This document shows, in pieces, positions 28,493 through 60,634 of a stretch of 64,000 nt of DNA. The notes under the pieces are model-generated. The model ran no database searches and was not told the DNA's origin. It was given only the letters and a program-made list of their open reading frames with translations. Each line of letters begins with the position of its first letter. Position 1 is the stretch's first letter. The translations under genes and the position numbers were made by a program. This stretch comes from an uncultured Sphingomonadaceae bacterium (GTDB taxonomy: Bacteria > Pseudomonadota > Alphaproteobacteria > Sphingomonadales > Sphingomonadaceae): contig CANMVC010000001.1 of assembly GCA_947501325.1 (NCBI GenBank), positions 682,001 to 746,000 on the forward strand, read 5' to 3'.

Positions 28493-31400
28493 ATGATCGA
28501 TCCGAGAAATTTTCGCTTGCCGTTGCTGGCATTGCTTCCTTTATTGGCCGCCACCTCCTCCCTTGCCCACGCCCAAGGAACGCCGGTATCGTTAAGGGAT
28601 AGCTTCCCTATTGGCTCCGGCGATGGCACGCTCTGTCAGGTTCAGGACAGAAGTATTGAGAATAAGGCCAAACAAAGCATGTTTGACCGTAGCTGGGCTG
28701 TGGTCTGCCGTGATTCCGCGCGACCAGTCGGCTTTGTCTATGCTTTCCGTGCGCCGGAAGATGATGTTTTGCAGCGTATTGCCCCGCATCGTATGGATGC
28801 GGTGTCCTGCCCCGACCAAGCCCAGCCGGCCGTAGTGGGAGGCATGAACCGGAGCACTTGTACGCTTTCCAGCGAGCCGGTTGCCTATTCGATATTTCAG
28901 GAACAACGCGGCAATATTACCTATGTTGCAGAGGGCCTGACGGTCTATGACAGCGCAACCTCGCTCGCGCTGAAGTCGATTATGGCTAACAAGATCGTCA
29001 AAGGCAAAATTGACATTGCATCAACCTCTATCGCCGATCCCTTCGCCTTTGCGCGGGTGCAAGCACTGACGCTAAAACCGGATCAGGCGCTGGCGGAAGG
29101 CTACCGCCGTAATTTAAGCGGGGATTATGCCGAGGCAGCCGCCTTTTTTGAAACATTGCAGCAACGGACAGCTGGTCTTGATGGCGTGGATATCAATCCG
29201 CAGGAATATTTCATCAACCGCGCCTTACAAAAATCAAATCTCGGTGAATTTGCAGAGGCTGATGAGCTATTCAATCAAGCGAAAGCACTGGATTCCGGTA
29301 ATGTCGTGAACCAGAAATTGCTGCGCAACTTTGAAGCCATGCACTTGCTCAATCAGGGGCGCTTTGAAGACGCGGTGACGCGGATTAACTTGCCGATCAC
29401 TGCCACGGAATTGCAAAGAGACGCGCTTGTCAGCGGTCTTACCATTACCCAGCCGATTGCGATGCGGATTAACGGCGATGACAAGACCTCCAATCTACTC
29501 GGGTTGAATGATGATCTGAAACTGACCACGGCAGAACGCGGACAGATTATTGATGCGCAGGCGCTGCAGCTGATCGGAACCGCCCAACGAATCCGGGGCG
29601 ACGCCGCAGCGGCACAAACATCGTTGACCACTGCGTATAATCAGGCGGTTGCTGTGCGCGATGGTCGGGTAACCTCGATCACCCGGCTGCGTACCCAGAT
29701 CTTGTCGGAATTGGCGCTGCTCGCGGAATCTCAGGGCGAATTTGCCAATGCGGAGCAACTGTTGCGCAATGCTTTGGAACTGGTCGAGCTGCGATATCCC
29801 GAAACCCGAGCGGTCAACGGCGCGAAAGCAAAGCTTGCAAGCTATTTGTTGCGCCGCGGAGAACAAAATGAAGCGCGGCAATATTACCGGGAAGTGGTCG
29901 ACAGCACGATTGGTAAACGCAGCGCCGCGACCGGTATTGCCAACCAATTGGCACCCTATTTCGAATTAATGACCGAAGATCCTGGTGCCACGGAAGAATT
30001 TTTCAAGGCCGCCCAGATTTTGGTGCGACCCGGTGTAGCAGAAACCCAAGCGGTTTTGTCACGCGAACTGAGCGGCGGTACAGATGAGGCCTCCCGATTA
30101 TTTCGTCAGTCAGGCAATCTTGATCGCAGCATCGAACGGCTCCGCATGCGCTTCACAGCTTTGGGCAAAGTCGAACAGACGGCATCCACCCGCCAACGGC
30201 GCAGCGACCTTGCTGCCGAGATTGAAGAATTGGAGCGTGCCCAACAGCTGACGATCGTCAGCCTGGCGCAATATCCCCAATATCGCGCCATTGCGGACAG
30301 CTCGATTGCGCTGGAAGAATTACGCGGCAGCATGACCGACGACGAAGCCTATATGCGCATGGCGATTGTCGGGAATGACATTTTCATTTTCTATGCAGAA
30401 AAAGACTTTGCGACCACTTATAAATCGCCAATCAGCGCCGATGCGCTGGACGAAAAAGTGGATCTGTTGCGCGCATCCATTTCCGCTTTTGAAAATGGTC
30501 AATATGTGACCTATCCCTTTGATATCGAAGCGTCCCGCGGCCTGTTCAACGATCTGATGGCACCTGTCTCGGAGCGACTGGCAGCAAAAAGCCATCTGAT
30601 TTTTGAACCCGATGGCGCGATGCTGCGCTTGCCGATTAATCTGCTGGTCGTCGATGACGCGTCTGTCGCCGATTATCTAGCACGGGTGGAACAACCGGAT
30701 GGCGATCCGTTTGACTATACCGGGGTACGCTGGCTGGGCATTGATACCAATATCAGCACGGCTGTGTCCGCCCGTGGATTTGCCGATGCTCGCAGGGCGC
30801 CCATTTCAAAAGCTTCGCGGCAATATCTCGGCCTTGGCAGCAATCAACCAGTGGGGGCCAATACCGGTGTCCGCAGCGTACGGGCAGCGGCCGGTGGCCT
30901 TGATGCGCAGTGCAATTGGGCATTGAGCGAATGGAACAATCCGATTTCCGATGCCGAGTTGGTCCAGGCCCGTTCGATAATCGGACAAGGCGGCTCTGAA
31001 ATACTCACGGGCAAAGCATTTTCTGATGATCAGATATTGGCGAAATCCGATATTTCCGATTACCGCATCCTGCATTTCGCGACCCATGGCCTGGTAACGG
31101 CGCCAAAGCCATCTTGTCCCGCAAAGCCCGCCTTGCTGACATCTTTTGGCGGTGAAAAATCAGACGGCTTACTCGCCTTTGACGAAATTTTCGACATGAA
31201 GCTCGATGCTGACATCGTTATTCTCTCGGCCTGCGATACGGCTGGCAAAGCCAGCATCCGGGCGACCCGCGAAGCTGGTGTGAGCAGCGGTGGCGGTACG
31301 GCACTGGACGGGCTCGTGCGTTCCTTCATTGGTGCCGGCAGCCGCTCCGTGCTGGCGAGCCATTGGCCCGCGCCTGATGACTTCAAAGCAACAGAGCGCC

Positions 31401-31633
31401 TGATTGGCGGACTGTTTGACAAGGGGCAAGGGCAATCCATTGCCTCGGCATTGCGTGTTTCGCAAAAAATACTGATGAACGATCCCACGACATCACATCC
31501 TTATTATTGGTCCGGCTTTGCCATTATCGGTGATGGATCAAGGCCGTTTTTGCCCGATGGCACCGGCGGCGACCAAAGCACCACTGCAGCGACAACCAGC
31601 AACTCTGACAGGGCGGTATCGAACTTGAAATAA
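28493..31633 (+). CDS. Exported TPR-CHAT domain (caspase-like) protein
   Basis: 1046 residues. Signal peptide about 1-27 (hydrophobic LPLLALLPLLAATSSLAHA). The middle (about 195-500) is helical with TPR-like units (LSGDYAEAAAFFETLQQ, LGEFAEADELFNQAKALDSG). The C-terminal CHAT domain (about 770-1020) keeps both members of the cysteine-protease dyad: His865 in HFATHGLV and Cys914 in ILSACDTAG, plus SVLASHWPAPD. CHAT proteins are caspase/separase-like peptidases, often with protein-interaction repeats. The stop overlaps the CHASE2 cyclase start by one base (TAATG). The signal peptide implies periplasmic or outer-surface action, unlike most cytoplasmic CHAT effectors. Substrate unknown; the downstream exoprotein is a candidate. 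Confidence 0.85.
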   Translation: MIDPRNFRLPLLALLPLLAATSSLAHAQGTPVSLRDSFPIGSGDGTLCQVQDRSIENKAKQSMFDRSWAVVCRDSARPVGFVYAFRAPEDDVLQRIAPHRMDAVSCPDQAQPAVVGGMNRSTCTLSSEPVAYSIFQEQRGNITYVAEGLTVYDSATSLALKSIMANKIVKGKIDIASTSIADPFAFARVQALTLKPDQALAEGYRRNLSGDYAEAAAFFETLQQRTAGLDGVDINPQEYFINRALQKSNLGEFAEADELFNQAKALDSGNVVNQKLLRNFEAMHLLNQGRFEDAVTRINLPITATELQRDALVSGLTITQPIAMRINGDDKTSNLLGLNDDLKLTTAERGQIIDAQALQLIGTAQRIRGDAAAAQTSLTTAYNQAVAVRDGRVTSITRLRTQILSELALLAESQGEFANAEQLLRNALELVELRYPETRAVNGAKAKLASYLLRRGEQNEARQYYREVVDSTIGKRSAATGIANQLAPYFELMTEDPGATEEFFKAAQILVRPGVAETQAVLSRELSGGTDEASRLFRQSGNLDRSIERLRMRFTALGKVEQTASTRQRRSDLAAEIEELERAQQLTIVSLAQYPQYRAIADSSIALEELRGSMTDDEAYMRMAIVGNDIFIFYAEKDFATTYKSPISADALDEKVDLLRASISAFENGQYVTYPFDIEASRGLFNDLMAPVSERLAAKSHLIFEPDGAMLRLPINLLVVDDASVADYLARVEQPDGDPFDYTGVRWLGIDTNISTAVSARGFADARRAPISKASRQYLGLGSNQPVGANTGVRSVRAAAGGLDAQCNWALSEWNNPISDAELVQARSIIGQGGSEILTGKAFSDDQILAKSDISDYRILHFATHGLVTAPKPSCPAKPALLTSFGGEKSDGLLAFDEIFDMKLDADIVILSACDTAGKASIRATREAGVSSGGGTALDGLVRSFIGAGSRSVLASHWPAPDDFKATERLIGGLFDKGQGQSIASALRVSQKILMNDPTTSHPYYWSGFAIIGDGSRPFLPDGTGGDQSTTAATTSNSDRAVSNLK

Positions 31634-33687
31634 TGGTAAATATAGCACCCCCAACCGACCCGGCTTCGTCAGGCCGCGATGTCAAAGCCGAAGCGCGCGG
31701 GATATTACAGTCTCTCCGCCGGCTGTTTGACCAGCTTGGTCCCATCCGGTTGGGTTCGACGATATTGTTCCTGTTCCTGGCTCTGCTGATGGCGCGGTTT
31801 AGCTGGACAACGCCGCTCATTCAGGACGCCGAACGCGCGCTTTACGATATGCGCGCATCCGTCTTCGCTCCAGAGGTGGAGAAAGAAGACCGGATTGTGA
31901 TGATCGTCTATAACGAGGACACGCTGAAACTAACCGGCCAGCGGTCTCCGGTCGATCGAACGATACTGGCACAGGCGCTCGAATCAATTGATGCGGCCAA
32001 GCCAAAATCCATCGGCATCGATATTCTCTTCACCATGCCGCAAGATGATGACGCATTGCTCGTTTCGGCCTTCAAGCAGCTGCAAACGCCGACATATATT
32101 GCTTATGCGGACCCAAAATATAATCCTGAAATCGCTTTTGCAGAACATGAATTTCTCACAGCGTTTCTCAGCGAGGTGCAAGGCGATACGCTCAATCCGA
32201 CGAGCATCAAGCTGAACACCGACGGTGACGGTGTGCAGCGGCGCTGGACTCCTCAAAATCCCGAAGCACCGCCATTTATGGCAATGGCACTGACCAAGCC
32301 CAATCCGAAATTTGAGGCCAATCAAGGCGCTATCCGCTATCTGGTGCCTTCAAATCCCGATATGCCGGTATTTGACAAATTCCCGATCGAAAGCTTTGCA
32401 GATCCGGAGATAGCCGAGATGTTGCAATCCTTTATCAAGGATAAATATGTCCTGATCGGCGGCGATTTTGTTGACCGCGACCGTTTTGAAACCCCCATTG
32501 GTTCCATCACCGACTTGCAGAGCGAAGACGGCAAGATGATCGGACTGGAAGTGCACGCACACATGCTCGCACAACTGCTGAATGATGACAGGCCCGCGCT
32601 GATCCCAAGCTGGATATTGTGGATCGCCGCCCTGATTGTCGCCTTATGCGGCGGACTTTCAGCGCTTATCATGGGCAATGCGGCAAAAGTCGGCGGCATA
32701 TTGGTTGGTCAGTTTGCATTTTTCCTGGTTTTTCCGTTTTTCTTGCAAAATCTTGGCGTCGACACATTGACCCTGCCAGCCTTTGGCTGGGCCTTGGGCT
32801 GGTTATTTGGCTATTCCTCCGTCGGATCTGCCGCGCGAACCATTAATTCAAAACAGCGGGCTTTCGCGCAAGGTGCTCTAGGTAAATATCTGCCAAAATC
32901 TATCGCAGGAGAAATCTTGCGGGATCCGGAAAAGCTCTCCCTGCACGGCGAAAAGCGTCAGATATTTGCGGTCTTCACCGATTTGGAAGGGTTTACAAAA
33001 TTAAGCCACGCCATCGAACCTGAAATGGTGGCCACCTTGCTCAACGACTATCTCGACCGGCTCAGCGAAGTCGCGCTCGAATATGGCGGTACCATCGACA
33101 AATTTGTGGGCGATGCGCTCGTCACTTTTTGGGGGGCTCCGATTGCTTATCCCGATGACGGCGAGCGCGCGGCTAAAGCCGCATATGCGCTTTACCAGGC
33201 CGGTGAAGAGTTTCGCAAGAACGTCCCCGAAGGCGTCCCCCCCATTGGCCGCACCCGGGTAGGGCTGCATTATGGCGACGCGATTGTCGGCAATTTTGGT
33301 GGCGAAGGGCGCATCCAGTATACTGCGCTGGGCGATGCCATGAACACGGCCGCCCGTTTGGAGGCCGCCAACAAGACGCTGGAAACGAAAGTCCTGGTCA
33401 GCAGAGAAGCAATGGAGCGCACCGGCCTCGATTGGTATCGTCCGATGGGCACCATAACCCTGCGCGGTCGCTCTACACCGGTGGAGGTTTTTGAGCCCGT
33501 ACCCGACTGGGAAGAAAAAGATCGCGCGGCAGTGACTGCCGTCATAGCCGCCCATAAAAAAGGTGATATTGATTACGTTCAGACACTTAGCACTATAGTG
33601 ACGCAATATGGCGAGGATCTGGGCCTCGCAAATTTGCGAAAAAGACTAGAAAAGACAGAAAATGGAGAAAGCTATGCACTCGGCTGA
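31633..33687 (+). CDS. CHASE2-domain class III adenylate cyclase
   Basis: 684 residues. One membrane segment (about 37-55), an extracytoplasmic CHASE2 sensor domain (about 65-315, with KPKSIGIDILFTMPQDDDAL), then three membrane segments (about 325-400) and a cytoplasmic class III cyclase domain (about 435-610). Metal-binding Asp are in FAVFTDLEGFTKL and KFVGDALVTFWGAP; YTALGDAMNTAARLEAAN carries the transition-state Asn/Arg. Lys in DKFVGD and Thr in YTALGD at the substrate-selecting positions fit class IIIb adenylate cyclases. Probably makes cAMP in response to an unknown periplasmic signal. Coupled by 1-bp and 14-bp overlaps to its neighbours. Confidence 0.88.
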   Translation: MVNIAPPTDPASSGRDVKAEARGILQSLRRLFDQLGPIRLGSTILFLFLALLMARFSWTTPLIQDAERALYDMRASVFAPEVEKEDRIVMIVYNEDTLKLTGQRSPVDRTILAQALESIDAAKPKSIGIDILFTMPQDDDALLVSAFKQLQTPTYIAYADPKYNPEIAFAEHEFLTAFLSEVQGDTLNPTSIKLNTDGDGVQRRWTPQNPEAPPFMAMALTKPNPKFEANQGAIRYLVPSNPDMPVFDKFPIESFADPEIAEMLQSFIKDKYVLIGGDFVDRDRFETPIGSITDLQSEDGKMIGLEVHAHMLAQLLNDDRPALIPSWILWIAALIVALCGGLSALIMGNAAKVGGILVGQFAFFLVFPFFLQNLGVDTLTLPAFGWALGWLFGYSSVGSAARTINSKQRAFAQGALGKYLPKSIAGEILRDPEKLSLHGEKRQIFAVFTDLEGFTKLSHAIEPEMVATLLNDYLDRLSEVALEYGGTIDKFVGDALVTFWGAPIAYPDDGERAAKAAYALYQAGEEFRKNVPEGVPPIGRTRVGLHYGDAIVGNFGGEGRIQYTALGDAMNTAARLEAANKTLETKVLVSREAMERTGLDWYRPMGTITLRGRSTPVEVFEPVPDWEEKDRAAVTAVIAAHKKGDIDYVQTLSTIVTQYGEDLGLANLRKRLEKTENGESYALG

Positions 33688-34477
33688 TATGAAGACACCT
33701 AAATCTGGAAAGAAATTGGGCAATTTAGGCAAAGTTGCGCTCGGCGCTGCCTTGCTTGTTGGAATGACCGGTACGGCCATTGCCCAGAACATGGTGGTGC
33801 GTTCTACAGGACCATCTGCCAAGTCCTATCCGGCAGGCAAAAAGCTTACCGACAATACGAAAATAACGCTCAAAAAGCTCGATCAAGTAACAATTCTTGG
33901 CAAAGGCGGCACGCGGGTCATCAAGGGCCCAGGGACATTTACTGTCAATCGCAGCGCTGCGCGCAAATCGAGCAGCTCGACCCGTCTGTCCAGCTTCATC
34001 AATAATCGCGGCAGCAGCCGGGCGAGAACCGGAGCCGTTCGCAGCGCCGGTGTTACAACGGCCGAAGTTGCACCCAGAAACCCTAATCTCTGGTATCTAG
34101 ACGTGACCAAGGGCGGAAAATTCTGTGTTTCGGATGCTAATGCCCTGGTGCTGTGGCGCCCGGACTATACTGGCTCCGCCACCGCCAGCATCGTGGAACC
34201 GACCAATGGCGCGGTAACCGAAGTCGCCTGGCGCAAAGGCAATCCGCTGAAAAGCTGGCCGAAGGCTGTTGCGCCTCTGACCAATGGCGCTAGCTATCGA
34301 TTGATCGGATCCAATGTCGAAAAATCTGTCGAGATTAATTTTGTACTGCTGAATGAACCACCGAAAAGCCTCGACGATGCGGCAGAGGTCCTGATTGCCA
34401 ATGGCTGTCAGAGCCAACTCGATCTGCTGGTCGAGACGCTGGACGAAGGATCATCGGACAGCCAGGAACAAGGTTAG
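33674..34477 (+). CDS. Exported protein of unknown function (FecR/SH3-like, basic centre)
   Basis: 267 residues from ATG 33674, which has a GGAG ribosome binding site six bases upstream; Met at 33662 is less likely. Signal peptide about 1-38 (VALGAALLVGMTGTAIAQ). Next a short beta region with TKITLKKLDQVTILGKGGTR and GPGTFTVN, which resembles the FecR or bacterial SH3 'threshold' fold, then a Ser/Arg-rich stretch and a C-terminal beta domain (FCVSDANALVLWRPDY) with two Cys. Similar small proteins accompany CHAT/CHASE2 loci in my recollection, but no function is established. It lies between the cyclase and the transporter gene. Confidence 0.65.
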   Translation: MHSADMKTPKSGKKLGNLGKVALGAALLVGMTGTAIAQNMVVRSTGPSAKSYPAGKKLTDNTKITLKKLDQVTILGKGGTRVIKGPGTFTVNRSAARKSSSSTRLSSFINNRGSSRARTGAVRSAGVTTAEVAPRNPNLWYLDVTKGGKFCVSDANALVLWRPDYTGSATASIVEPTNGAVTEVAWRKGNPLKSWPKAVAPLTNGASYRLIGSNVEKSVEINFVLLNEPPKSLDDAAEVLIANGCQSQLDLLVETLDEGSSDSQEQG

Positions 34478-36369: not shown

Positions 36370-36385
36370 GCAATAGAGGCGGCGC

Positions 36386-46396: not shown

Positions 46397-47355
46397 GCAA
46401 ACCAATAGCCGCCATGGCCTCTCTGGTCCGTCCGTTGGTCGAACCGCATTGCGGCGATCTCGACGTCACGTGGTTCACGAGCACGGAAGAAGCACTGGAG
46501 ATAGCGCCCCATGCTGAAATCGGTTGGTTCGACATGTATGATAAAGAAAAGATGGCCCAGGTTCTGGGCGCCGCCACAAGTCTGAAATGGCTCAACAGCA
46601 TCTATGCTGGCGTTGAGCATTTTCCACTCGATCAGCTTAAAAGCCAGGGCACGATTGTGACTAACGGCGCAGGCCTGAACAGCTCACCCATTGCCGAGTT
46701 CGTGCTTATGGGCATGCTTGCCGCTGCCAAGCGGACAGACAAATTGCTTGCGCTTCAAGAGCAACAGGAATGGCCCGAACAAGCCCCCGGCACGGCCGAA
46801 CTGGCAGACAGCAAGGCTCTCATCATCGGCTATGGCGGCATTGGTCAGCAAGTGGCCAAAAAATTATCCGGTTTTGAGATCGACGTTACCGCCGTGCGCA
46901 GGACGGCAAGCGATGATCCGGCCGGCGTCGGGACTGAAGTGATTGGCACGGACGAATGGCGCGACCGACTGGGCGAATTTGACTGGGTGATCGTCTCCGC
47001 ACCTGCAACTGCAGAAACTCAGAAGCTGCTCGGCAAAGATGAATTTGCGGCGATGAAACAATCTGCCTGGTTGGTGAATGTCGCGCGTGGATCGTTGGTA
47101 GATCAAGCGGCATTGGTCGATGCGTTGAATGGCAAGAGCATCGGCGGCGCGGTGCTTGATGTTACCGACCCCGAACCTTTACCCAAAGGTGATCCGCTTT
47201 GGACAGCGCCCAATTGCTTTATCACCATGCATGTTTCCGGCGTTGCGCAAACCCGTATGTTTCAGCGCGCCGCAGCGCGTTTTGTCGAAAATTTGAAATG
47301 CTATCAAAATGGTGAAGAAATGGTTGCGGTTGCTGATTTGGATCGCGGCTATTGA
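46393..47355 (+). CDS. D-isomer-specific 2-hydroxyacid dehydrogenase
   Basis: 320 residues from ATG 46393, which overlaps the cysS stop; Met at 46378 is an alternative. Rossmann motif IIGYGGIGQQVAKKLSGFE (about 139-157), catalytic Arg in NVARGSLVDQAALVD, Glu in TDPEPLPKGDPLW and His in FITMHVSGVA. NAD(P)-dependent reduction of a 2-keto acid is expected. The active-site His context (HVSG) resembles glyoxylate/hydroxypyruvate-type members, but substrate is not certain. Translationally coupled to cysS without an obvious functional link. Confidence 0.87.
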   Translation: MSKPIAAMASLVRPLVEPHCGDLDVTWFTSTEEALEIAPHAEIGWFDMYDKEKMAQVLGAATSLKWLNSIYAGVEHFPLDQLKSQGTIVTNGAGLNSSPIAEFVLMGMLAAAKRTDKLLALQEQQEWPEQAPGTAELADSKALIIGYGGIGQQVAKKLSGFEIDVTAVRRTASDDPAGVGTEVIGTDEWRDRLGEFDWVIVSAPATAETQKLLGKDEFAAMKQSAWLVNVARGSLVDQAALVDALNGKSIGGAVLDVTDPEPLPKGDPLWTAPNCFITMHVSGVAQTRMFQRAAARFVENLKCYQNGEEMVAVADLDRGY

Positions 47356-47520
47356 GCCGACAAGAAAATTTTCGATTGCTGCGTGACACGCTTGTAAATT
47401 TAACTTATCAACCAACGATATAGGGGTAAGAATGAGTCTTTCTGGAGGGGAAATTCATTCTGTGGTCGTTGCCATTATCTTGAGCAAATACTGATCGTCC
47501 AGATCAGGGAAGGATCCACA

Positions 47521-49167: not shown

Positions 49168-49174
49168 AGGATAA

Positions 49175-50867: not shown

Positions 50868-52274
50868 ATGCAAATGGGGAAAAATCTTTCGTGGAAGCGA
50901 AGCTGGTCTGCACTGGCCGCTAGTCTATTCTGTTGTGCGCTTGCCGGCGTAGCATTTCTCATATCATCTTTTGCAGCCCCTGCCCCGGTTGAAGCGGCGC
51001 AAGATTTAGCTAGCGGAACACATATGGGTGTTGCCAGCTGCGGTGGAACCACCTGCCACGGGCGGCAAGAAGCCGATGGCGAAGTTGTTCGCCAAGATGA
51101 ACTCATGCGCTGGCAGGAAGAATCGACGCCGGGCGGAGCCCATAGCCGCGCTTTCCGAGTCCTTCGCGAACCCCGCAGCATTGCGATAGCGAACCGGCTT
51201 GGCATCAAAGATGCTGCGTCTTCCGATCAATGCTTGGGCTGTCACAGCACGCCGGCAGCAAAGAAGGGCCCTCGTTTCCAAGTCAGCGACGGCGTCGGGT
51301 GCGAAGCGTGTCATGGCCCATCGTCCGGTTGGCTGTCGGCTCACTATGCCGTTGGCGCGAACCATGCGAAGAATGTCTCTCTCGGCCTCACGCCACTCGA
51401 CAATCCGAAAGTGCGAGCCAGCAATTGTCTCGACTGCCATTTTGGTAGCGCGAAAAAGGGCCAATTTGTTGATCACCGGATCATGGCTGCTGGCCATCCC
51501 CGGATTTCCTTCGAGCTCGATCTATTTTCAACGCTGCAACAACATCATGATGAAGACGTCGATTATGTTCGTCGCAAGGGTAAGACGAACGCCGTCCGCT
51601 TCTGGGCGGTCGGTCAGTCCATGGCGCTGGAACGCTCGCTTAATCTCTTCTCGAAACCGGCATTGGCACAGGAAGGCCTGTTCCCGGAATTCTATTTCTA
51701 TGATTGCCACAGTTGTCACCGCCGTATCTATGATGAAGCCTCTGCAAGACCAACATCAATCAACAATCCAGGTCGGCCCATCCCGGAGGGCATGCCGCCC
51801 TATAATGATGAAAATATGATCATGCTAAGCGCGGCTATAAAAGTGACTGCTCCTGATCTCGCCGGACAATTTAATGCGCGGTCCAAGGCATTTCATGCAG
51901 CCATGGCGCAAGGTCGCGGCCCTGCTGTTCAAGCCGCCGCGCGCCTGCGTCAGACTGCCACAACTTTGGCAGACCGGTTCTCTCGCGCCAGCTTTGGCCG
52001 TGATCAAACCTTCCAGATTATGGAAACAATTGCAGGGCAAGCCATCTCGCCGCGCTTCACTGATTATGAAGGCAGTGTACAGGCGGTGATGGCAATTGAT
52101 ACGTTGCTCAACGGATTAGTGAACAGCGGCCAGGTCAGCGAAGCCGCGGCTGCCAGCCTGCGCGGACAGATTAATGTCGCCTATAAGGCGGTAGACGAGC
52201 CTAACAGCTATCAACCCCTGCAATTCCGCCGTGCGCTTGGCAGCGCGGTCAGAACCATAAGGGCTTTACGATAA
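50868..52274 (+). CDS. Pentaheme c-type cytochrome (cytochrome c554-like)
   Basis: 468 residues. Signal peptide or anchor near residues 14-42. Haem sites: C122-x2-C125-H, C145-x2-C148-H, C187-x2-C190-H and C280-x2-C283-H, plus an unusual CX4CH site, CGGTTCH, at 58-64. The spacing and the GVGCEACHGPSSGWLSAH stretch fit the cytochrome c554/c-prime group of multihaem electron carriers. The C-terminal third (about 310-468) is helical and haem-free. Expected in the periplasm, passing electrons to the outer-membrane partners encoded downstream. Stop overlaps the next start by one base (TAATG). Confidence 0.85.
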   Translation: MQMGKNLSWKRSWSALAASLFCCALAGVAFLISSFAAPAPVEAAQDLASGTHMGVASCGGTTCHGRQEADGEVVRQDELMRWQEESTPGGAHSRAFRVLREPRSIAIANRLGIKDAASSDQCLGCHSTPAAKKGPRFQVSDGVGCEACHGPSSGWLSAHYAVGANHAKNVSLGLTPLDNPKVRASNCLDCHFGSAKKGQFVDHRIMAAGHPRISFELDLFSTLQQHHDEDVDYVRRKGKTNAVRFWAVGQSMALERSLNLFSKPALAQEGLFPEFYFYDCHSCHRRIYDEASARPTSINNPGRPIPEGMPPYNDENMIMLSAAIKVTAPDLAGQFNARSKAFHAAMAQGRGPAVQAAARLRQTATTLADRFSRASFGRDQTFQIMETIAGQAISPRFTDYEGSVQAVMAIDTLLNGLVNSGQVSEAAAASLRGQINVAYKAVDEPNSYQPLQFRRALGSAVRTIRALR

Positions 52275-54268
52275 TGCGGAACCCTCGTTTTACCGCTGCG
52301 ATTTCGGCAGCTGCCTTGCTTTTGACCTCCTGTGGCGGTGGTGGGGACAGCAATGATTTTGGCGGCACACCATCACCCGCCCCGACACCGACGCCCGCCC
52401 CAACACCAGTAGACGGCAATGGTGGAGCGTTTACCCCACCTGCGCAAGAATCTCTCAGTGTAACCGACGTGCAAACGGTTATTGCACAGGCAGTCGGTGA
52501 GGCAACCGCGCGAAACCTGCCTTCGGTTATCGCGGTTACAGACCGCGTCGGCAATGTGCTTGCTGTTTTTGAAATGAACGGTGCTCGCGCCATAGCAACG
52601 ACCAGTGCGCGCACGGCGATGGGAACGATCAACAGCCCCGGCATCGATGTTCAGGGCGTAGATGTACCAGCGGCCGCTGGAGCTATCGCAAAAGCCGTCA
52701 CAGGTGCCTATTTATCCAGTGCAGGAAACGCATTTTCCACTCGTACTGCCAGTCAAATTGTGCAGGAACATTTCCCGCCTGCACCTACCGCAGCAGGCCT
52801 GGAAAGCGGCCCGCTATTTGGCGTTCAATTCAGCCAGTTACCCTGTTCCGATCTTAATCAGAGGTTCGGTAATGCCGGCGCAGCTGCGCTCATTGGACCG
52901 AAGCGCTCTCCTTTAGGCTTGTCCGCTGACCCTGGTGGACTACCACTTTATAAGAACGGCGTTGTTGTCGGCGCAATCGGCGTCATGGGCGACGGCGATT
53001 ATGGCTTCGATTCCAACATTCTCGATATTGATGTCGATGATGAAGAAGCGATTGCGCTTGCCGGAATTCAAGGCTTTGCGCCGTCAGCTGCGATCACGGC
53101 CAACCGGATCTCGGTTGACGGAACGTCCTTGCGGTTCAGCGATATGGTGGTGAGTGATCTGTCACCGCTGCAAAGCAACTTTGCTGCCATTAACGGCACG
53201 TCCGGCAATTTGATTGCGGTAACCGGCTATAGCGCCGGCGCGATCATCGCCGGCTCGGCTTATGGCACGGAAAATTCTGGGATCCGGGCTTCCACAGCTG
53301 CCGAATTCAGGAACCGCGACGCGTTCGTGCTGTCCGATGGTACCGGCACAAACCGGTTCCCGATCCGCGCTGGCACCGATGGAGCCGATGTTGCTGCGCC
53401 GTTAACAGTAGCCGAATCCCGGGCCATCCTGGAAGAAGCGTTCATCATCATGAGCCGCGCCCGCGCGCAAATCCGGCAACCACTCGACAGCCGCGCACAG
53501 GTTTCCATTTCGGTCGTCGATACCCATGGAGAGATTTTAGGCATAGTCCGTTCGCCTGATGCTCCCATTTTCGGAACGGATGTGTCGTTACAAAAAGCTC
53601 GTACGGCATCTTTTTTCTCGAACAGCGTTGCGGCATCCGATCTTCTCGGCAATCCTGACACCGATGTTGCGGCCTTTGTGCAGCGGGTTCGGACATTTCT
53701 GAACGACCCCAATGCACTCACCGGAACGGTCGCTTTTGCCGATCGATCCGGCGGCAACCTCTCCCGACCCTATTTTCCTGATGGTGAACTGGGCCGTCCG
53801 GCCGGACCTTTGTCGCGTCCGATTGAGGATTTCAATCCGTTGGCAACCGGGCTTCAGGCAGCATTGATCTTTCCCAATCTGGGCCAACATCTGGCCTTTG
53901 TGACCGGGGCCTCCGCAACAGACACACCCATGCGCTGCACCAACACACCCGATGCGGTGGCAGGTCAGAACCGTCTGGAAAATGGTATCCAGATTTTCCC
54001 GGGCAGTGTCCCGATTTATCGCGGCGATCAACTGATTGGCGGCCTTGGCGTGTCAGGTGACGGGATTGATCAGGATGATATGATCAGCTTTCTCGGTTTG
54101 CATAATGCAGGTCTTCGTGTTGGTAGTATTGGCAATGCACCCAAAGCCATCCGTGCCGACAATGTGGTGGTCGACCTTGGCGACGCGCAGGTACGCTTGC
54201 GCTATGTGAGTTGCCCCTTTGCGCCGTTTCTTGACACAAACGACCAAAATGTTTGCGAGGGATTGTAA
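52274..54268 (+). CDS. Lipoprotein with two GlcG/HbpS (DUF336) haem-binding-type domains
   Basis: 664 residues. Lipobox LLTSCGGGG puts the lipidated Cys at residue 20; a Pro/Thr linker follows. Two GlcG/HbpS-like domains: about 58-240 (with SVIAVTDRVGNVLAVFEMNG and YKNGVVVGAIGVMGDGD) and about 375-595 (with ISVVDTHGEILGIVRSPDAP and YRGDQLIGGLGVSGDGID). The family includes the haem-binding HbpS; some members are found beside oxidoreductases. It should be tethered to the outer (or inner) membrane by its lipid. It is in a translationally coupled operon with the cytochromes; a role in haem delivery or as structural partner is inferred. Confidence 0.8.
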   Translation: MRNPRFTAAISAAALLLTSCGGGGDSNDFGGTPSPAPTPTPAPTPVDGNGGAFTPPAQESLSVTDVQTVIAQAVGEATARNLPSVIAVTDRVGNVLAVFEMNGARAIATTSARTAMGTINSPGIDVQGVDVPAAAGAIAKAVTGAYLSSAGNAFSTRTASQIVQEHFPPAPTAAGLESGPLFGVQFSQLPCSDLNQRFGNAGAAALIGPKRSPLGLSADPGGLPLYKNGVVVGAIGVMGDGDYGFDSNILDIDVDDEEAIALAGIQGFAPSAAITANRISVDGTSLRFSDMVVSDLSPLQSNFAAINGTSGNLIAVTGYSAGAIIAGSAYGTENSGIRASTAAEFRNRDAFVLSDGTGTNRFPIRAGTDGADVAAPLTVAESRAILEEAFIIMSRARAQIRQPLDSRAQVSISVVDTHGEILGIVRSPDAPIFGTDVSLQKARTASFFSNSVAASDLLGNPDTDVAAFVQRVRTFLNDPNALTGTVAFADRSGGNLSRPYFPDGELGRPAGPLSRPIEDFNPLATGLQAALIFPNLGQHLAFVTGASATDTPMRCTNTPDAVAGQNRLENGIQIFPGSVPIYRGDQLIGGLGVSGDGIDQDDMISFLGLHNAGLRVGSIGNAPKAIRADNVVVDLGDAQVRLRYVSCPFAPFLDTNDQNVCEGL

Positions 54269-56430
54269 AGCAGGTGCCTGCGGTCTCTTCTTCTCTCATG
54301 CCAATCATGGCCGTGATGTCTGGTCAGGCAGAACAGATGGAAGCGCAACGCGTATCTGTAGAAGAGATGGAAACGTCTTTGGCCGCTCTGCTGGCTGGCG
54401 AACAATTTGACTGGTTACGAGCGGATAATTCGGATTTCGATTTGACCACAATCAATACCGCTTCAGGCGCCTTAGCGGTCGGCGATGATGCATTGGTCGT
54501 GAGCGCTGGAATGGCAAGCAATCAAGCCATCACGGCTGGCGATTCAGATCCCAACGATGACGAAGAAGTCAACCTGTCAGAACCACCGGTTACCGACAGC
54601 GATGACGCAGCGACAGTGCCCGACCAGCTGGAAATGGATTTTGACGGTCTGGAAGCAGACGAAGCGCTGATTGATGGCCGCCGTCGTCCCGGGGTAATCA
54701 AAGAACTACCGGATCGCGTCATCCAGAATAACCCCGGCGCTGGCAGTGCACCGCCGCCCGAAGCGTTCCCGACCGACGAATTTCCAGTCCCCGACCGCTG
54801 GCGGATATTGCAGACATTGTGCCCGCAAAAAGGCGGTGATCAATCCATCTACAAGGTCTTCGGCGCGCTTAAAAGCAACTGTGCCAGTACGTCGAACCCT
54901 TATGCGCAAAACGTACTCAAAGGCGACAAGCCGATTCCGGAAGACAAGAAACCGTCTTTCCTGAAAGGCGATGACTGGTTTTTTGTCGTCAACGCAATTT
55001 CCGATACCGTTATCGAACCACGCAGCTTTCCCATTCCAGTGGGCGTGCAGACCACAGACAGGCCGGGCAGCGTTGATGTGTTCGGTCGCTCCGGATCAGA
55101 AGTCTATGCACAAACCTTCATCACCGGCTTCGCACTGATCAAAGGCTCCACAGCCTATAAACCACCAGACGTCGAATATCGTCTGACGCTGGCGACGCAG
55201 ATCAACCACGTGAACGTACCGGAACGCCGTGTGTTGTTTGTTGAACCATCCAAGACATCCAATCGCACCGACTATTTTGTTGGCGTGCAGGAAGCGTTTT
55301 TTGATTATCATATTCGCAACACATCGGCGCGCTATGATTTTGACAGCTTCCGTATCGGTATCCAGCCCATGCAGGCTGATTTCCGGGGTTTTCTGTTTCA
55401 GGATAACCAACTTGGTTTTCGGTTGTTTGGCACCCGTGACAATAATCGCGTGCAGTATAATCTCGGTGCCTTTGTGCAACTCGAAAAGGACACGAATAGC
55501 GGCCTGAACGACATTTTCCAGACCCCCCGCGAAAGCTACATATTCTTTGCCAACCTCTATCGTCAGGATTTGCCCTTTGTTGGCCTGACCAGCCAGTTTA
55601 GCGTGACCTATAATATGAACCGCGAACAGAGCGATATCGAGATTGACGATAACGGATTTCCCGTGCGCCCTGCATTGATCGGTGATCTGCGGGGTCGTGC
55701 TTATGATGTCGTTTATCCCGGCTATGCCGTGGATGGGCGGATCGGACGAATTAACGTGACCGGCCAAGTGTACGGCGCTTTTGGCGAAGATCGCAACAGC
55801 ATCTTCACCAGCGAACCAGCAAAGATTGCGGCGTATTTCGCAGCAGCAGAAGCCAGCTATGATGTTGACTTCCTGCGGTTCCGCGCCTCTGGTTTGTTCG
55901 CTAGCGGCGACGGCAATCCGTATAACAATACGGAAGCCGGATTTGACTCTATTTTCGAAAATCCGATTTTTGCTGGCGCGGATACCAGTTACTGGATCCG
56001 GCAAACCATTCCCTTTGCTGGCGGCGGACGAGTAATCAGTATTAACGGCCGCAACGGCATATTAAATTCGCTGCGCTCTTCAAAAGAGCAAGGTCAGAGC
56101 AATTTCAACAATCCTGGCACAATATTGGCCGGTGTCGGCGTGGACGCTGATCTGACCCCCGATTTCCGGCTGTCGGCCAACGCCAATCATTTGTGGTTCC
56201 ACAAAACCGAAAGCTTGGAGGCGCTGCGCGTCGAAGGGTCTATACCCAAAGATATTGGTTGGGATTTGTCAGCTGCGGCAATTTATCGACCCAAGGCGAC
56301 CCAGAATATTGTTTTCCGTCTGTCTGGCGCAGCGCTACTACCCGGAAAAGGTTTCCGGGACTTGTTCGACCAGACCGACAAGCGCGACTTCCACTACTCC
56401 ATTCTCTTTAACGCAATATTGGCCTTCTGA
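54253..56430 (+). CDS. Predicted outer-membrane beta-barrel of the cytochrome operon
   Basis: 725 residues from TTG 54253, overlapping the upstream gene by 16 bp; GTG 54274 or ATG 54298 are alternatives. The TTG start leaves a weak signal peptide (MRGIVKQ, then hydrophobic to SGQA). Residues about 30-150 are acidic and Pro-rich; from about 200 on alternating beta strands dominate (for example FRGFLFQDNQLGFRLFGTRD, NLGAFVQLEKD), and the last residue is Phe. It is not TonB-dependent (no plug). In this place it may be the porin sheath that carries a haem wire through the outer membrane, in the manner of MtrB/PioB, but I see no direct sequence similarity to those. Confidence 0.7.
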   Translation: MRGIVKQVPAVSSSLMPIMAVMSGQAEQMEAQRVSVEEMETSLAALLAGEQFDWLRADNSDFDLTTINTASGALAVGDDALVVSAGMASNQAITAGDSDPNDDEEVNLSEPPVTDSDDAATVPDQLEMDFDGLEADEALIDGRRRPGVIKELPDRVIQNNPGAGSAPPPEAFPTDEFPVPDRWRILQTLCPQKGGDQSIYKVFGALKSNCASTSNPYAQNVLKGDKPIPEDKKPSFLKGDDWFFVVNAISDTVIEPRSFPIPVGVQTTDRPGSVDVFGRSGSEVYAQTFITGFALIKGSTAYKPPDVEYRLTLATQINHVNVPERRVLFVEPSKTSNRTDYFVGVQEAFFDYHIRNTSARYDFDSFRIGIQPMQADFRGFLFQDNQLGFRLFGTRDNNRVQYNLGAFVQLEKDTNSGLNDIFQTPRESYIFFANLYRQDLPFVGLTSQFSVTYNMNREQSDIEIDDNGFPVRPALIGDLRGRAYDVVYPGYAVDGRIGRINVTGQVYGAFGEDRNSIFTSEPAKIAAYFAAAEASYDVDFLRFRASGLFASGDGNPYNNTEAGFDSIFENPIFAGADTSYWIRQTIPFAGGGRVISINGRNGILNSLRSSKEQGQSNFNNPGTILAGVGVDADLTPDFRLSANANHLWFHKTESLEALRVEGSIPKDIGWDLSAAAIYRPKATQNIVFRLSGAALLPGKGFRDLFDQTDKRDFHYSILFNAILAF

Positions 56431-56431
56431 T

Positions 56432-59400
56432 ATGCAACCTACTTCTCCCGCAAAGTCGTCAATGTTACCTACCCCTGCACCCATGCGGAGCGGAGTAGCG
56501 CTTGCTTTTGCGGCCCTATTGCTTGTTTTTGGTTCATCTCAAGTATTGGCTGCGGGCAAGGAGAAAGCCCAAAAAATAGATTATTCGTTCACCCCGCCAG
56601 CACCACAGAACCAGACGTGGGATGCGGCGAATGCCAAAAGCACAGGCTGCGTTTCTTGTCACACGGACAGTGATCAAAAAACGATGCATGAGACACCCGC
56701 TGTGGTGCTCGGCTGTGTTGATTGTCATGGCGGCGATGCCAGCGTCAATGGCGACAATGATTGGGGCAAGAAAAGCCCACAATATATGTTTGCGCTCAAA
56801 AAGGCCCACGTTCTCCCCAAATACCCGGAAACCTGGCACTGGCCTTCCTCCGCCAACCCCAAGCGCAGTTATACTTTGCTGAACAAGGAATCCCCCGAAT
56901 TTGTACGCTTCGTCAATCCTTCCGATTATCGCGTAGCACGCGAGTCCTGTGGTGCCTGTCATATGGAAATTATCGAGGCGTCCGAACGGTCCTTGATGGC
57001 AACAGGTGCCATGCTCTGGGGTGGAGCTGCTTATAATAACGGCATCGTGCCTTTTAAAAACTATGTCTTCGGTGAAGCCTATACCCGCAAAGGCCTGCCG
57101 GCGACGATCAAATCACCCGGTAGCCCGCACGGAACCGTGACCGAAGAGCAAAAAAAGCGCGGCGCTCTACCTATTCTTTATCCTCTGCCAACTTGGCACA
57201 CGATACCGCCTGGCGATGTTTTCCGTGTGTTCGAGCGCGGTGGCCGCAATATCAACACACAGTTTCCTGAGATTGGTCTGCCCAATATTGGCGGCATTAT
57301 CCAACGCCTGGAAGAACCGGGTCGCCCTGATCTGAAACAATCTAACCGGGGTCCTGGTACCGGTTTACGTGTCGCTATTCCGGCCCTGAACATCCACAAG
57401 ACCCGATTAAATGACCCGTTCACCTGGTTCATGGGTACCAATGACCAGCCCGGCGATTATCGTCAGTCCGGCTGTGCCAGCTGTCACGTGATTTACGCCA
57501 ATGACCGCGAACCACGCCACAGCCTGACCTATGCGAAATATGGCCGCGATGGCCAGACCCAGACTAAAGATCCGACAATCCGCAACCTTAAAGAAGGCGA
57601 ACATCGCTTTGGCAGCTACGGCACCTATGATGCTGCCTATGGCAAAAAGGGCGGGCATGGCGAGAAAGCAGCAGATCACGGTGAGAGCGCAGGCCATGGT
57701 GATGACCATGATAATGACGGCCATGGCAGCGATCACAGCTCTGATATAGCCGAAGCAGACCGCGAAAAAGGCCATCCTATACAACATGCCTTCACGCGCG
57801 CCATTCCCACCGCACAATGCATGAACTGTCATATGCACCAGCCCAATATCTTCCTGAACAGCTTTTTGGGTTATACGATGTGGGATTATGAATCCGACGC
57901 GCCGCTGATGTGGCCTGGCCCGGATAACACCACGCCGAGACCCGCCGGGATGAGCGATGAAGAATATCAGAAAACCTATAAGCAGCAAAAATATCCTGAT
58001 GCTGAAGAGGTGCGGAAAATATTGGACCGCAATCCCGAGGCTGCATCACCGAAGGGGCTCTGGGGCGATCTCGACTTTTTGCGCAATGTCTATGATCTCA
58101 ACAGCGAAGCAAAAGACACACAATTTGCTGATTATCACGGTCATGGCTGGAATTTTCGCGCAATTCTGAAACGGGATCGAGACGGCAACTTGCTGGATAA
58201 AGCGGGTGATATAGTTGAGAATGACGATCCCGAGAAATTCCGGCGCGAAGGCGAAGAAAAGTTTGTTGAACCCGGCATCAATCCCGGGAAGTCCGTCCAT
58301 ATGATGAGTATCCATGCCGAGGTTGGCATGCAATGTGCCGACTGCCACTTTGCGCAGGACAGCCATGGTAACGGGCTGATCTATGGTGAGGTCGCCAATG
58401 CGGTAGAGATTAATTGCAAAGATTGTCACGGCACTGCCGACGCCTATCCAACATTAATGACCTCCAATCTCGCAGCGCGGCCGAAAGGCAATAATCTGGC
58501 GCTGCTGCGGAATCCCGATGGTCAGCGACGCTTTGAGTGGATGCAGGACGAAGACAGCAACCGTGTACTGATCCAGAGATCGATTATCGATCCTGAGATT
58601 AGCTGGCGCGTCAGTCTCGTCAAAGACAGTGTCGATCGCGCACATCCTGATTTTAACCGGAAAGCTGCGCGAGCCAAGCTGATGTCAAAAAGCGGCGCGG
58701 AAACCGGCAAGTTCACCTTTGGTAGCGGCGTGCCTATGGATGACCGCGCACATAAAGACGAAAATATGGTCTGCTTCACCTGCCATCTCAGTTGGACGAC
58801 CAGCTGCGGCGGCTGTCACCTCCCCATTGAGGCCAACTGGCAAACGGAAAGCCATAAATATGAAGGGGGAACGACACGTAACTATGCGACCTATAACCCG
58901 CAGGTAGCCCGCGATCAGATGTTCCAGCTTGGCCGTCACCAGACGACCAAGGGCAGCATCATCGCACCGGTTCGTTCAACCTCGGCTTTGGTACTCTCAT
59001 CCACCAACATTAACCGCGAACGCATCTATGTGCAGCAAGCTCCTATTTCTTCGATCGGTTTCTCCAGTCAGGCCTTTGCACCGCATTTCCCGCACACGGT
59101 CCGAAAGACAGAGACGAAACAATGCTCTGACTGTCACTTGAGTGACGCGAACGACAATAACGCGATCATGTCGCAGCTCTTGTTACAGGGCACCAATTTC
59201 GTGAATTTTGTCGGGCTGCATGCATGGGTAGGGATGGACAAGGGCTTTGAAGCCGTACGCGTCACCGAATGGGATGAACCGCAAGCCGTCATTGGATCCT
59301 ATCTGCAAAAATATGCCTATCCAGATTACTGGCGGATGCATGTTGAGGATAATGGCCGTGAATTGATCAACTGGGTACGCGGGGAGCGGTTGGATGAAGA

Positions 59401-60634
59401 TCTGTCCGGCGAAACCAAGGCGCTCGAAGAATTTGCCAATGTTGTGCAGGGCACAGGCGACAGCGTCCGCTGTTTGCAGCTGCGCGGCGAATATATGTTT
59501 GTCGCCGAAGGCAAAGGCGGGTTCCGCGCTTATGATGTCGCGTCAATCGGAAACAAGGGCTTTTCCGAGCGCATCGTGAAGGCACCCTTCTCGTCGTTAG
59601 GCCAAGATACCCATGTGGATACCAAAAATGCCACATGTATGGCGCTGTCGACCAATCAGCCGATTGCACCGGAACGCAACACGGCTGAATTACGCGAGAT
59701 AAACGAAGAACAAGCATTCCATCCAATCTACAACTATGCGGTCATTACTGACAGCGAAGAAGGCTTGATCCTCGTCAATGTGAACACGCTCGCAGATGGT
59801 GAATTCCGCAATAACTTCTTTAAACGCGCTGTAACCTGGAATGAGGGCGGCTTGTTAAGCGGGGCTAAGCATATCACGTTGGCTGGCCATTATGCCTATA
59901 TAACGGCTGATAGCGGCCTGGTTGTGATGGATCTTGATGACCCACTCAAGCCGCGTCATGTGATCACCATGCGGATGGTGGATGCCCGGGCATCGGCGTT
60001 GCAATTCCGATATTTGTGGGTCACCGATGTTGATGGCGTAAAACTGTTCGATGTTACAGATATGGAAAAACCTGTTGCTGTGGAATCCGGAACAATTCCG
60101 CTGAACAACGCACGGCGGCTCTATCTGGCTAGAACCTATGCCTATATCGCTGCCAAGGATGAAGGTCTGGTCATCGCCAACATAATGAAACCCGAAGAAC
60201 CAGTCATTTACCGCAAAGAGACATTTGGCGGCCAAATGAACGATGCCGAGGACGTGATTGTCGGATCGACCAATGCCACCTTGTTTGCCTATGTTGCTGA
60301 TGGCCGTAATGGTTTAAAAGTTATCCAGCTTACATCACCGGATAGCCAGCCGAATTACTACGGCTTTTCACCACCACCCATGCCCGAACTCATTGCCTTT
60401 GCCCGCACCCCGAAACCGGCATTGGCCTTGTCCAAGGGATTGGATCGTGATCGAGCTGTCGATGAAACTGGAGGTCAGATGGCTGTATTTGGCCGACTAG
60501 GTTCGCGTCCCTTCAGCCGCAGCGAAATGCAACGTTTCTATCTGAACAGCCAAGGCAAGCCGTATTTCGTGAATGATAAAGTCGATTTGTCAGATTGGGT
60601 AGGACCAGTACCACCGATGTTGGCGCGACGTTGA
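56432..60634 (+). CDS. Decaheme c-type cytochrome with C-terminal LVIVD-type beta-propeller
   Basis: 1400 residues from ATG 56432, one base after the previous stop; the reading frame extends further upstream inside the barrel gene but without a fitting signal peptide. Signal peptide about 1-41 (ends VLAA). Ten CX2CH motifs: CVSCH, CVDCH, CGACH, CASCH, CMNCH, CADCH, CKDCH, CFTCH, CGGCH and CSDCH, spread over about residues 70-900. Between sites four and five is a His/Asp-rich stretch (about 410-447). The last 400 residues hold LVIVD-like repeats (YAYITADSGLVVMDLDDPLK; YLWVTDVDGVKLFDVTDMEK), which form beta-propellers. Probably a surface-exposed or periplasmic electron carrier. Confidence 0.87.
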   Translation: MQPTSPAKSSMLPTPAPMRSGVALAFAALLLVFGSSQVLAAGKEKAQKIDYSFTPPAPQNQTWDAANAKSTGCVSCHTDSDQKTMHETPAVVLGCVDCHGGDASVNGDNDWGKKSPQYMFALKKAHVLPKYPETWHWPSSANPKRSYTLLNKESPEFVRFVNPSDYRVARESCGACHMEIIEASERSLMATGAMLWGGAAYNNGIVPFKNYVFGEAYTRKGLPATIKSPGSPHGTVTEEQKKRGALPILYPLPTWHTIPPGDVFRVFERGGRNINTQFPEIGLPNIGGIIQRLEEPGRPDLKQSNRGPGTGLRVAIPALNIHKTRLNDPFTWFMGTNDQPGDYRQSGCASCHVIYANDREPRHSLTYAKYGRDGQTQTKDPTIRNLKEGEHRFGSYGTYDAAYGKKGGHGEKAADHGESAGHGDDHDNDGHGSDHSSDIAEADREKGHPIQHAFTRAIPTAQCMNCHMHQPNIFLNSFLGYTMWDYESDAPLMWPGPDNTTPRPAGMSDEEYQKTYKQQKYPDAEEVRKILDRNPEAASPKGLWGDLDFLRNVYDLNSEAKDTQFADYHGHGWNFRAILKRDRDGNLLDKAGDIVENDDPEKFRREGEEKFVEPGINPGKSVHMMSIHAEVGMQCADCHFAQDSHGNGLIYGEVANAVEINCKDCHGTADAYPTLMTSNLAARPKGNNLALLRNPDGQRRFEWMQDEDSNRVLIQRSIIDPEISWRVSLVKDSVDRAHPDFNRKAARAKLMSKSGAETGKFTFGSGVPMDDRAHKDENMVCFTCHLSWTTSCGGCHLPIEANWQTESHKYEGGTTRNYATYNPQVARDQMFQLGRHQTTKGSIIAPVRSTSALVLSSTNINRERIYVQQAPISSIGFSSQAFAPHFPHTVRKTETKQCSDCHLSDANDNNAIMSQLLLQGTNFVNFVGLHAWVGMDKGFEAVRVTEWDEPQAVIGSYLQKYAYPDYWRMHVEDNGRELINWVRGERLDEDLSGETKALEEFANVVQGTGDSVRCLQLRGEYMFVAEGKGGFRAYDVASIGNKGFSERIVKAPFSSLGQDTHVDTKNATCMALSTNQPIAPERNTAELREINEEQAFHPIYNYAVITDSEEGLILVNVNTLADGEFRNNFFKRAVTWNEGGLLSGAKHITLAGHYAYITADSGLVVMDLDDPLKPRHVITMRMVDARASALQFRYLWVTDVDGVKLFDVTDMEKPVAVESGTIPLNNARRLYLARTYAYIAAKDEGLVIANIMKPEEPVIYRKETFGGQMNDAEDVIVGSTNATLFAYVADGRNGLKVIQLTSPDSQPNYYGFSPPPMPELIAFARTPKPALALSKGLDRDRAVDETGGQMAVFGRLGSRPFSRSEMQRFYLNSQGKPYFVNDKVDLSDWVGPVPPMLARR

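Follow-up and report, generated by a model that had tools for sequence, protein, structure and literature searches.

A row of cytochrome and barrel genes in a sphingomonad as the candidate outer half of an NAD(P)H-driven extracellular reductase

Four genes for two cytochromes, a lipoprotein and a barrel

The window analysed here, 64,000 nucleotides from an uncultured Sphingomonadaceae bacterium (assembly GCA_947501325.1, contig CANMVC010000001.1, positions 682,001 to 746,000), holds a row of four closely joined genes, P1 to P4, which encode two multihaem c-type cytochromes, a lipoprotein and an outer-membrane barrel. The row is conserved as a unit among relatives, and its barrel gene co-occurs throughout the order with a second, inner-membrane redox block. 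With moderate confidence, we see the four genes as the outer-membrane half of a complete conduit that would reduce an extracellular acceptor with cytosolic NAD(P)H.

50868..52274, + strand: P1, exported pentahaem c-type cytochrome (four CXXCH motifs and one CX4CH), cytochrome c554-like; proposed periplasmic relay
52274..54268, + strand: P2, HbpS/GlcG-domain lipoprotein; may serve as an accessory in the outer membrane or as a cap that binds haem
54253..56430, + strand: P3, outer-membrane beta barrel, AlgE/OprD-like, 18 strands in the model, TTG start
56432..60634, + strand: P4 (ATG at 56432), decahaem c-type cytochrome with a C-terminal LVIVD repeat region; proposed extracellular or surface terminal

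An earlier, sequence-only reading had placed four genes here, and we find them at the same coordinates and with the junction types it described: P1 and P2 overlap by one nucleotide (TAATG), P2 and P3 by 16 nucleotides, and a single nucleotide separates P3 from P4 (TGA T ATG). The products comprise 468, 664, 725 (from the TTG) and 1400 residues, with computed masses of 50.6 kDa for P1 and 155.5 kDa for P4. That reading named them as a 5-haem cytochrome, a lipoprotein with two GlcG domains, a plugless barrel and a 10-haem cytochrome with a propeller. The ten CXXCH motifs of P4 are indeed there, all of them invariant in 21/21 aligned sequences, while five haems in P1 hold if its CX4CH is counted and become four on CXXCH alone. 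The lipoprotein stands, by its lipobox and its match to PF03928 (HbpS/GlcG, E 2.3e-23), albeit with three Pfam stretches in place of two domains. An 18-stranded model bears out the barrel but not the word plugless, as several segments are modelled at a predicted local distance difference test score (pLDDT) <50; and for the propeller it is the match of P4 to the LVIVD repeat PF08309 (E 1.4e-9, one stretch near the C-terminus), and this Pfam match alone, that can be given.

All haem motifs of P1, including the C, C and H of its CX4CH, are invariant in 20/20 sequences, the P1 and P4 alignments being drawn from the window, relatives within the order and two further genomes from outside. P1, whose export signal type was judged by eye, matches PF13435 (Pfam, E 8.4e-10), and its profile matches cytochrome c554 among PDB sequences (1bvb, E 5.6e-7). 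To TIGR03508, the model of DmsE/MtrA-type decahaem cytochromes (a family we take to be kin to MtrA), P1 scores 19.6 bits for a cut-off of 192.2, and P4 is absent among the listed matches of this model. In P2, the lipobox-type signal includes a cysteine (Cys20) that is invariant in 23/23 aligned sequences.

The barrel of P3 spans residues 242-724 in a model with a predicted template modelling score of 0.59, residues 1-40, 42-187 and 566-619 being among those at pLDDT <50. Its best structural matches are AlgE and OprD, at 7-13% identity to the AlgE and OprD/Occ rows. The 50 matches listed for this comparison did not include MtrB, which we do not count as exclusion. MtrB barrels have 26 strands, those of AlgE and OprD 18, and since P3 models as 18-stranded and AlgE/OprD-like, insertion of a cytochrome into a large barrel of MtrB type does not follow from it. 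Searches of Pfam and NCBIfam with P3 gave nothing at E 0.1, nor did its profile find a PDB sequence at E 1. An aromatic residue at the C-terminus is a signal of outer-membrane barrels, and this residue is F or Y in 24/24 aligned homologues of P3, whose signal type was judged by eye. In a tree of 82 rows made by a quick method, P3 mostly follows genera by eye and places four genomes (G444, G553, G345, G545) outside the order's rows, with long branches flagged by the tool.

P4 carries a signal of cleavable type (by eye) and found no PDB-sequence match at E 0.1. Membership of the ExtM family was considered and rejected at 67.8 bits for an NCBIfam cut-off of 800, with a match made of short stretches around the haem motifs. 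Between haems 4 and 5 (residues ~383-445) lies a His/Asp/Gly-rich insertion of variable length which resembles a metal-binding linker. Twelve-haem cytochromes of 783-854 residues (L125-L128; genomes G430, G296, G261 and G209) match P4 chiefly at query residues 637-822 and possibly form a wider ExtM-like family together with it. In G444 (C42:123034-124176), the P4 homologue was matched in two pieces, with one in-frame TGA reported in the first.

The sequence-only reading had asked for the conservation of the four genes in relatives. A P4 search of genome contigs gave 505 related stretches. We retained the best 80, all near kin, so host counts from this search are not used here. P1, P2 and P3 are present in 71/71 of those 80 loci that have at least 5.5 kb of upstream sequence, the other nine having less of it because their contigs end, and order and strand of the genes are identical in 72/72 loci where all four were found. 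This conservation of the row excludes chance. Hosts include Erythrobacter, Blastomonas, Sphingobium and Novosphingobium strains, and P4 homologues lie on 12 Sphingobium and one Sphingopyxis plasmid records; all three plasmid records examined hold the four-gene row, both Sphingobium ones also the inner block described below. P3 occurs in 39/196 genomes of our order sample (Sphingomonadales by named relatives). Among 398 genomes of the phylum, the P3 profile finds 12 carriers, four of them the above genomes outside the order, and P4 matches 21 at E 0.001, as 10 strong matches (seven in the family plus G444, G553 and G545) and 11 weak partial ones. A glutamate dehydrogenase gene is found in 25/88 loci, between P1 and P2 in G553 (L123) and beside P1 in the Sphingopyxis plasmid (L160).

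An inner-membrane block and its distribution

Beyond P4, 40/67 loci with at least 8 kb of downstream sequence (again among the best 80 of 505) hold a second block with genes for a cyclic-nucleotide-phosphodiesterase-like protein, an FHA-type protein with ten CXXCH motifs, a membrane protein of ~290 residues and a protein that combines flavin adenine dinucleotide (FAD), cyclic-nucleotide-binding (cNMP) and iron-sulfur (FeS) domains. In these 40 loci the block lies on the strand opposite to the outer genes except in L064, where the phosphodiesterase-like gene was not found. The window genome has it at G000:C1:857065-863179, with the FHA gene 121.8 kb from P3. A TPR/CcmH-like gene, divergent from the FAD/FeS gene, is seen in 40/88 loci.

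The membrane protein carries two WX3HX13H motifs in 45/45 rows (44 distinct) and SGXXG on its fourth helix in 33/45. This combination is described as the signature of the inner-membrane proteins of two candidate porin-cytochrome clusters, PCC3 and PCC4, with the WX3HX13H pair read as two haems b (PMC5566968). The FAD/cNMP/FeS protein comprises a pyridine-nucleotide/FAD domain, two cNMP-binding domains and Fe-S domains including PF13247; its 16 cysteines, enough for four [4Fe-4S] sites, are invariant in 43/43 sequences, with the FAD motif in 42/43 and the NAD(P) motif in 41/43. A thioredoxin-reductase-type CxxC is absent from residues 111-260 in 43/43, and the FAD domain reaches 119.9 bits against the YpdA model (cut-off 339.9). 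The FHA-type cytochrome has ~600 residues, a single membrane segment by eye and ten CXXCH motifs in 45/46 rows (six in the remaining row), its FHA domain lying above the Pfam cut-off in one relative. As for the phosphodiesterase-like protein, that of one relative scores 148.1 bits against SpdA (cut-off 400) and 94.6 against CpdA (cut-off 225), and in the window genome a homologue with 48.8% identity to that of another relative adjoins the FHA gene.

Outside the order the two blocks also stand together: inner and outer genes form one cluster on one strand in G545 and G553, and in G444 the inner block lies within ~15 kb of the outer genes. In G345 the genes for the FAD protein, membrane protein, FHA-decahaem cytochrome, P2 and P3 follow each other on the same strand up to the contig end, P1 not being found in this stretch.

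Within the order, the FHA-decahaem gene is present in 40/196 genomes, namely in 39/39 with P3 and in 1/157 without it, the latter by a weak match (G086, E 6.3e-4). P3 and FHA blocks lie within 15 kb of each other in 20 of the 39 genomes and apart in 19, so their co-occurrence cannot be put down to proximity. Five genera are mixed, with carriers and non-carriers of P3; among their genomes with a genus name given, the FHA-decahaem gene is found in 23/23 carriers and in 0/11 known non-carriers.

The inner block can also exist without this outer half, as two genomes indicate that hold it in a fused form, with the FAD/cNMP/FeS and inner-membrane proteins joined into one of ~1120 residues, followed by an FHA-type cytochrome with nine CXXCH and one longer motif:

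L152, 3052-8146 (genome G344): fused inner-block genes
L153, 7850-13656 (genome G228): fused inner-block genes

Neither stretch matched P1-P4, and P3 was found in neither genome (G344 being 76% complete).

A candidate conduit, its alternatives and its neighbourhood

Taking the two blocks as one system, we infer the order of carriers and the direction of flow from domain make-up. The cytosolic FAD/cNMP/four-[4Fe-4S] protein would take electrons from NAD(P)H, its fusion of a flavin/NAD(P)H domain to four [4Fe-4S] sites pointing to NAD(P)H as their source, and the inner-membrane protein with its two putative haems b would carry them across the inner membrane. There, the anchored FHA-type cytochrome would accept them on ten periplasmic haems c, and P1, with five haems, may relay them over the periplasm to a presumed complex of P3 barrel, P2 lipoprotein and P4, through which they would pass the outer membrane to the haems and propeller of P4. 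At this end point P4 would reduce an extracellular acceptor, and a cyclic nucleotide may tune the flow by way of the cNMP domains, the phosphodiesterase-like protein and a CHASE2-cyclase encoded nearby (see below). The sequence-only reading had likewise proposed an electron conduit. Its class is retained, by the co-conservation of the genes and the di-haem-b inner block, whereas the four genes it took for the conduit are only the outer half.

Several observations speak against our proposal. The pore of an 18-stranded barrel may not be wide enough to take up a multihaem chain. No lipobox is visible in P4 by eye, and given how lipoproteins are sorted, the route of P4 to the surface, or its retention there, is not explained. 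The cytochrome part of P4 (965 residues) was modelled at pLDDT 35.7 only, which leaves the propeller to the Pfam match and surface display as a proposal. The window genome's own FHA domain scores 19.2 bits, below the Pfam cut-off of 20.7, and a search for an FNR-type box over 300 bases ahead of P1, in the window and in 27 loci, gave none. Of 398 phylum genomes, 15 contain a strong match to the inner-membrane protein (E 1e-50 or better); P3 is present in 12 of these and missing from three (G196, G228, G344). Finally, a neighbour chosen as control co-occurs with the conduit as well:

47521-49167: acetolactate-synthase-like gene, neighbour control

At a preset E of 1e-150 this gene is found in 37/39 carriers of P3 versus 22/157 other genomes and, above 900 bits, in 37/39 versus 4/157, the 900-bit split having been chosen after the score groups were visible. 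In the mixed genera it is present in 23/23 carriers and in 3/11 (900-bit split) or 7/11 (preset) non-carriers. Lineage thus contributes to any such count. Within the order, the FHA block stands out by its exact agreement with P3 and by the joint clusters in distant taxa. The control encodes a thiamine diphosphate (TPP) enzyme (PRK08322 at 882 bits, the cut-off being 509). With genes for a D-2-hydroxyacid dehydrogenase and an aldehyde dehydrogenase it makes up a stretch (46378-50614) immediately before P1. It co-occurs with the conduit even where far away from it, and may supply NAD(P)H or mark a lifestyle.

A direction opposite to the one we favour, in which P4 would oxidise an outside donor such as Fe(II) or Mn(II) and send electrons inward to the b-type cytochrome and the quinone pool, seems unlikely to us. 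Sphingomonads are mostly aerobic, and such hosts would use oxygen as the final acceptor. The authors who described PCC3 and PCC4 also drew the flow inward to the quinone pool (PMC5566968), which counts against our reading too; the inner-membrane proteins of both clusters have the two WX3HX13H motifs in common with ours. The NAD(P)H/flavin domain fused to four [4Fe-4S] sites, however, points to NAD(P)H as the source. Reduction of NAD(P)+ by Fe(II) or Mn(II) would moreover be uphill on general redox energetics.

Nor do we expect, at a similarly low level of belief, that there is no wire at all and that P3 is an ordinary AlgE/OprD-like pore which admits an oxyanion, a chelate or haem to be reduced or bound in the periplasm by P1, P2 and P4. 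Such a pore would agree with the 18-stranded model and with the HbpS-like domains of P2, and P4 has its sub-threshold match to ExtM, from a Geobacter cluster in which the porin ExtI is described to affect selenite and tellurite reduction (PMC5877670). Moreover, the tellurite reducer Sphingomonas ursincola KR-99 holds the four genes (L050). Yet the ExtM match is confined to the stretches around the haem motifs, and a store of haem would have no use for an NAD(P)H module. The tellurite reductase purified from KR99 has subunits of 62 and 55 kDa, unlike P4 and P1 with the masses given above, and the words 'heme' and 'cytochrome' are absent from the main text of the paper on it (PMC5488091). As these subunit sizes do not fit, tellurite or selenite as a substrate remains a lead only.

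That the two blocks are separate redox systems brought together by common ancestry and lifestyle, as the control gene and the inner block without a barrel in G196, G228 and G344 might suggest, is improbable in light of the exact 39/39 agreement, with one weak hit elsewhere and the same pattern in five mixed genera, and of the same-strand joint clusters in distant taxa.

Turning to possible regulation of the proposed conduit, the window holds a further row of genes ~17 kb upstream of P1, followed by a two-partner secretion pair:

28493..31633, + strand: CHAT-domain/TPR protein (PF12770, E 1e-50), next to the cyclase gene; may be its partner in signalling
31633..33687, + strand: CHASE2 domain plus class III nucleotide (adenylate-type) cyclase (PF05226, E 4e-31; PF00211, E 4.8e-14); possible regulator
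33662..34477, + strand: FecR-like secreted protein (named by eye), overlapping the cyclase gene
34579-44914: two-partner secretion pair, ShlB/FhaC transporter and a repetitive exoprotein of 2842 residues

CHASE2 is a sensor domain, and class III cyclases are recognised by catalytic motifs; the cyclase carries those of the adenylate-cyclase type (FTDLEGFT/DKFVGD/TALGDAMNTAAR). The FecR-like protein has no Pfam match at E 0.001. In at least 17/80 P4 loci, P1 is directly preceded by cyclase and FecR-like genes, a lower bound as most loci extend only ~3.5 kb upstream of P1, and a CHAT homologue precedes the cyclase in 6/17 of these, the others possibly not reaching that far. At a cut-off fixed before the search (E 1e-40), cyclase homologues occur in 36/39 conduit genomes versus 7/157 others, all seven of one genus, and 28 of the 36 genomes have them no more than 30 kb from P3 or the FHA gene; in the mixed genera they are found in 22/23 carriers and 0/11 non-carriers. 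Since the control gene co-occurs too, these counts alone leave a functional link of the cyclase unproven and are suggestive only. The cNMP domains, the phosphodiesterase-like protein and the nearby cyclase taken together nevertheless suggest cyclic-nucleotide control of the conduit. A similar two-partner secretion pair lies directly upstream of P1 in two Sphingobium plasmid loci (L159, L161).

More tentatively, and as a possibility we would not press, the system may constitute a distinct class of cyclic-nucleotide-gated, NAD(P)H-driven extracellular reductase under the control of a CHASE2-adenylate cyclase and a phosphodiesterase, with an AlgE-fold barrel, a GlcG lipoprotein and a decahaem-propeller cytochrome. 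It would comprise at least seven proteins, 25 haems c, two haems b and four [4Fe-4S] clusters and be held by ~1/5 of the sampled genomes of the order. Studies of extracellular electron transfer have centred on anaerobic metal reducers and on iron oxidisers. If our conduit works, many aerobic sphingomonads have NAD(P)H-powered electron export. An outer-membrane architecture with an AlgE-type barrel would then be added to the known conduits, inner and outer conduit halves would be seen to have been exchanged in evolution, and cyclic nucleotides may prove to control electron export directly. Several of the hosts are named cultured strains and hence accessible to experiments; inner and outer blocks are both present in Sphingobium herbicidovorans MH, Erythrobacter dokdonensis DSW-74 (L068) and Sphingobium chlorophenolicum NBRC 16172 (L073).

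Comparison with known systems

Titles and abstracts of the open PMC literature searched held no description of this operon. Closest to its inner half is PCC4, a candidate porin-cytochrome cluster of Hyphomicrobium, Zetaproteobacteria and others, which is described with a porin, periplasmic cytochromes of 4, 5 and 10 haems and an inner-membrane protein with two WX3HX13H motifs, with a pfam13247 Fe-S gene in one subgroup and without an extracellular cytochrome (PMC5566968). Both the WX3HX13H motifs and PF13247 are found in our inner block, while its association here with haem sets of 5, 10 and 10 and with a large P4 with propeller repeats departs from the PCC4 pattern.

Two loci, L156 and L157, which we take as PCC4-like from the published description rather than from PCC4 sequences, hold genes for a 4-haem cytochrome, an NAD(P)H-flavin protein, an FeS protein, a membrane protein and a 10-haem cytochrome; L157 has a 5-haem gene in addition, and its 4-haem gene combines three CXXCH with one longer motif. 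With E-values that come from a small set of open reading frames, these loci match our profiles of P1 (7.5e-16 for L156, 3.7e-18 for L157), the FAD/cNMP/FeS protein (8.2e-47 and 2e-38) and the membrane protein (6.4e-18 and 4.5e-13), whereas the FHA-decahaem profile matches L156 (8.2e-13) and not L157. To P2, P3 and P4 they match nothing at E 0.01, their genomes being without P3, a comparison that included no authenticated PCC4 porin. In them the NAD(P)H domain forms an FNR-type protein of its own, unlike the YpdA-like and fused one described here. In our system, an inner half like that of PCC4 would appear to be paired with an outer half that is without published description among the open PMC papers searched.

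With PCC3 the inner-membrane protein shares its WX3HX13H pair and, in the 33/45 rows given above, SGXXG. PCC3 cytochromes are described with 22-39 residues per haem (PMC5566968), a range that P4 (140, or 1400 residues over ten haems), P1 (~94, or 468 over five) and the FHA-type protein (~60) all exceed. The hosts of PCC3 include an Erythrobacter sp. (PMC5566968) whose cluster was not compared, a caveat to novelty.

The Geobacter ext cluster (extHIJKLMNOPQS), linked to selenite and tellurite and described with other inner-membrane partners (PMC5877670), resembles ours in that a non-MtrB porin goes with multihaem cytochromes, one of them related to P4 at the sub-threshold level noted above. With the AlgE and OprD (Occ) channels P3 has its barrel fold in common, and it differs from them by its cytochrome-gene neighbours. 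From MtrCAB, MtoAB and PioAB the system differs in having no MtrA-type match near cut-off, an AlgE/OprD-like 18-strand barrel model, a large P4 with propeller and a GlcG lipoprotein. The likening to MtrCAB/PioAB-type conduits made by the sequence-only reading, which did not recognise the composition, does not extend to P1, this being cytochrome c554-like and far below the cut-off of the MtrA-type model; what does stand is the general design, in which a periplasmic multihaem cytochrome, a barrel and a surface multihaem cytochrome are combined, and which the four genes of the window would share with all three.

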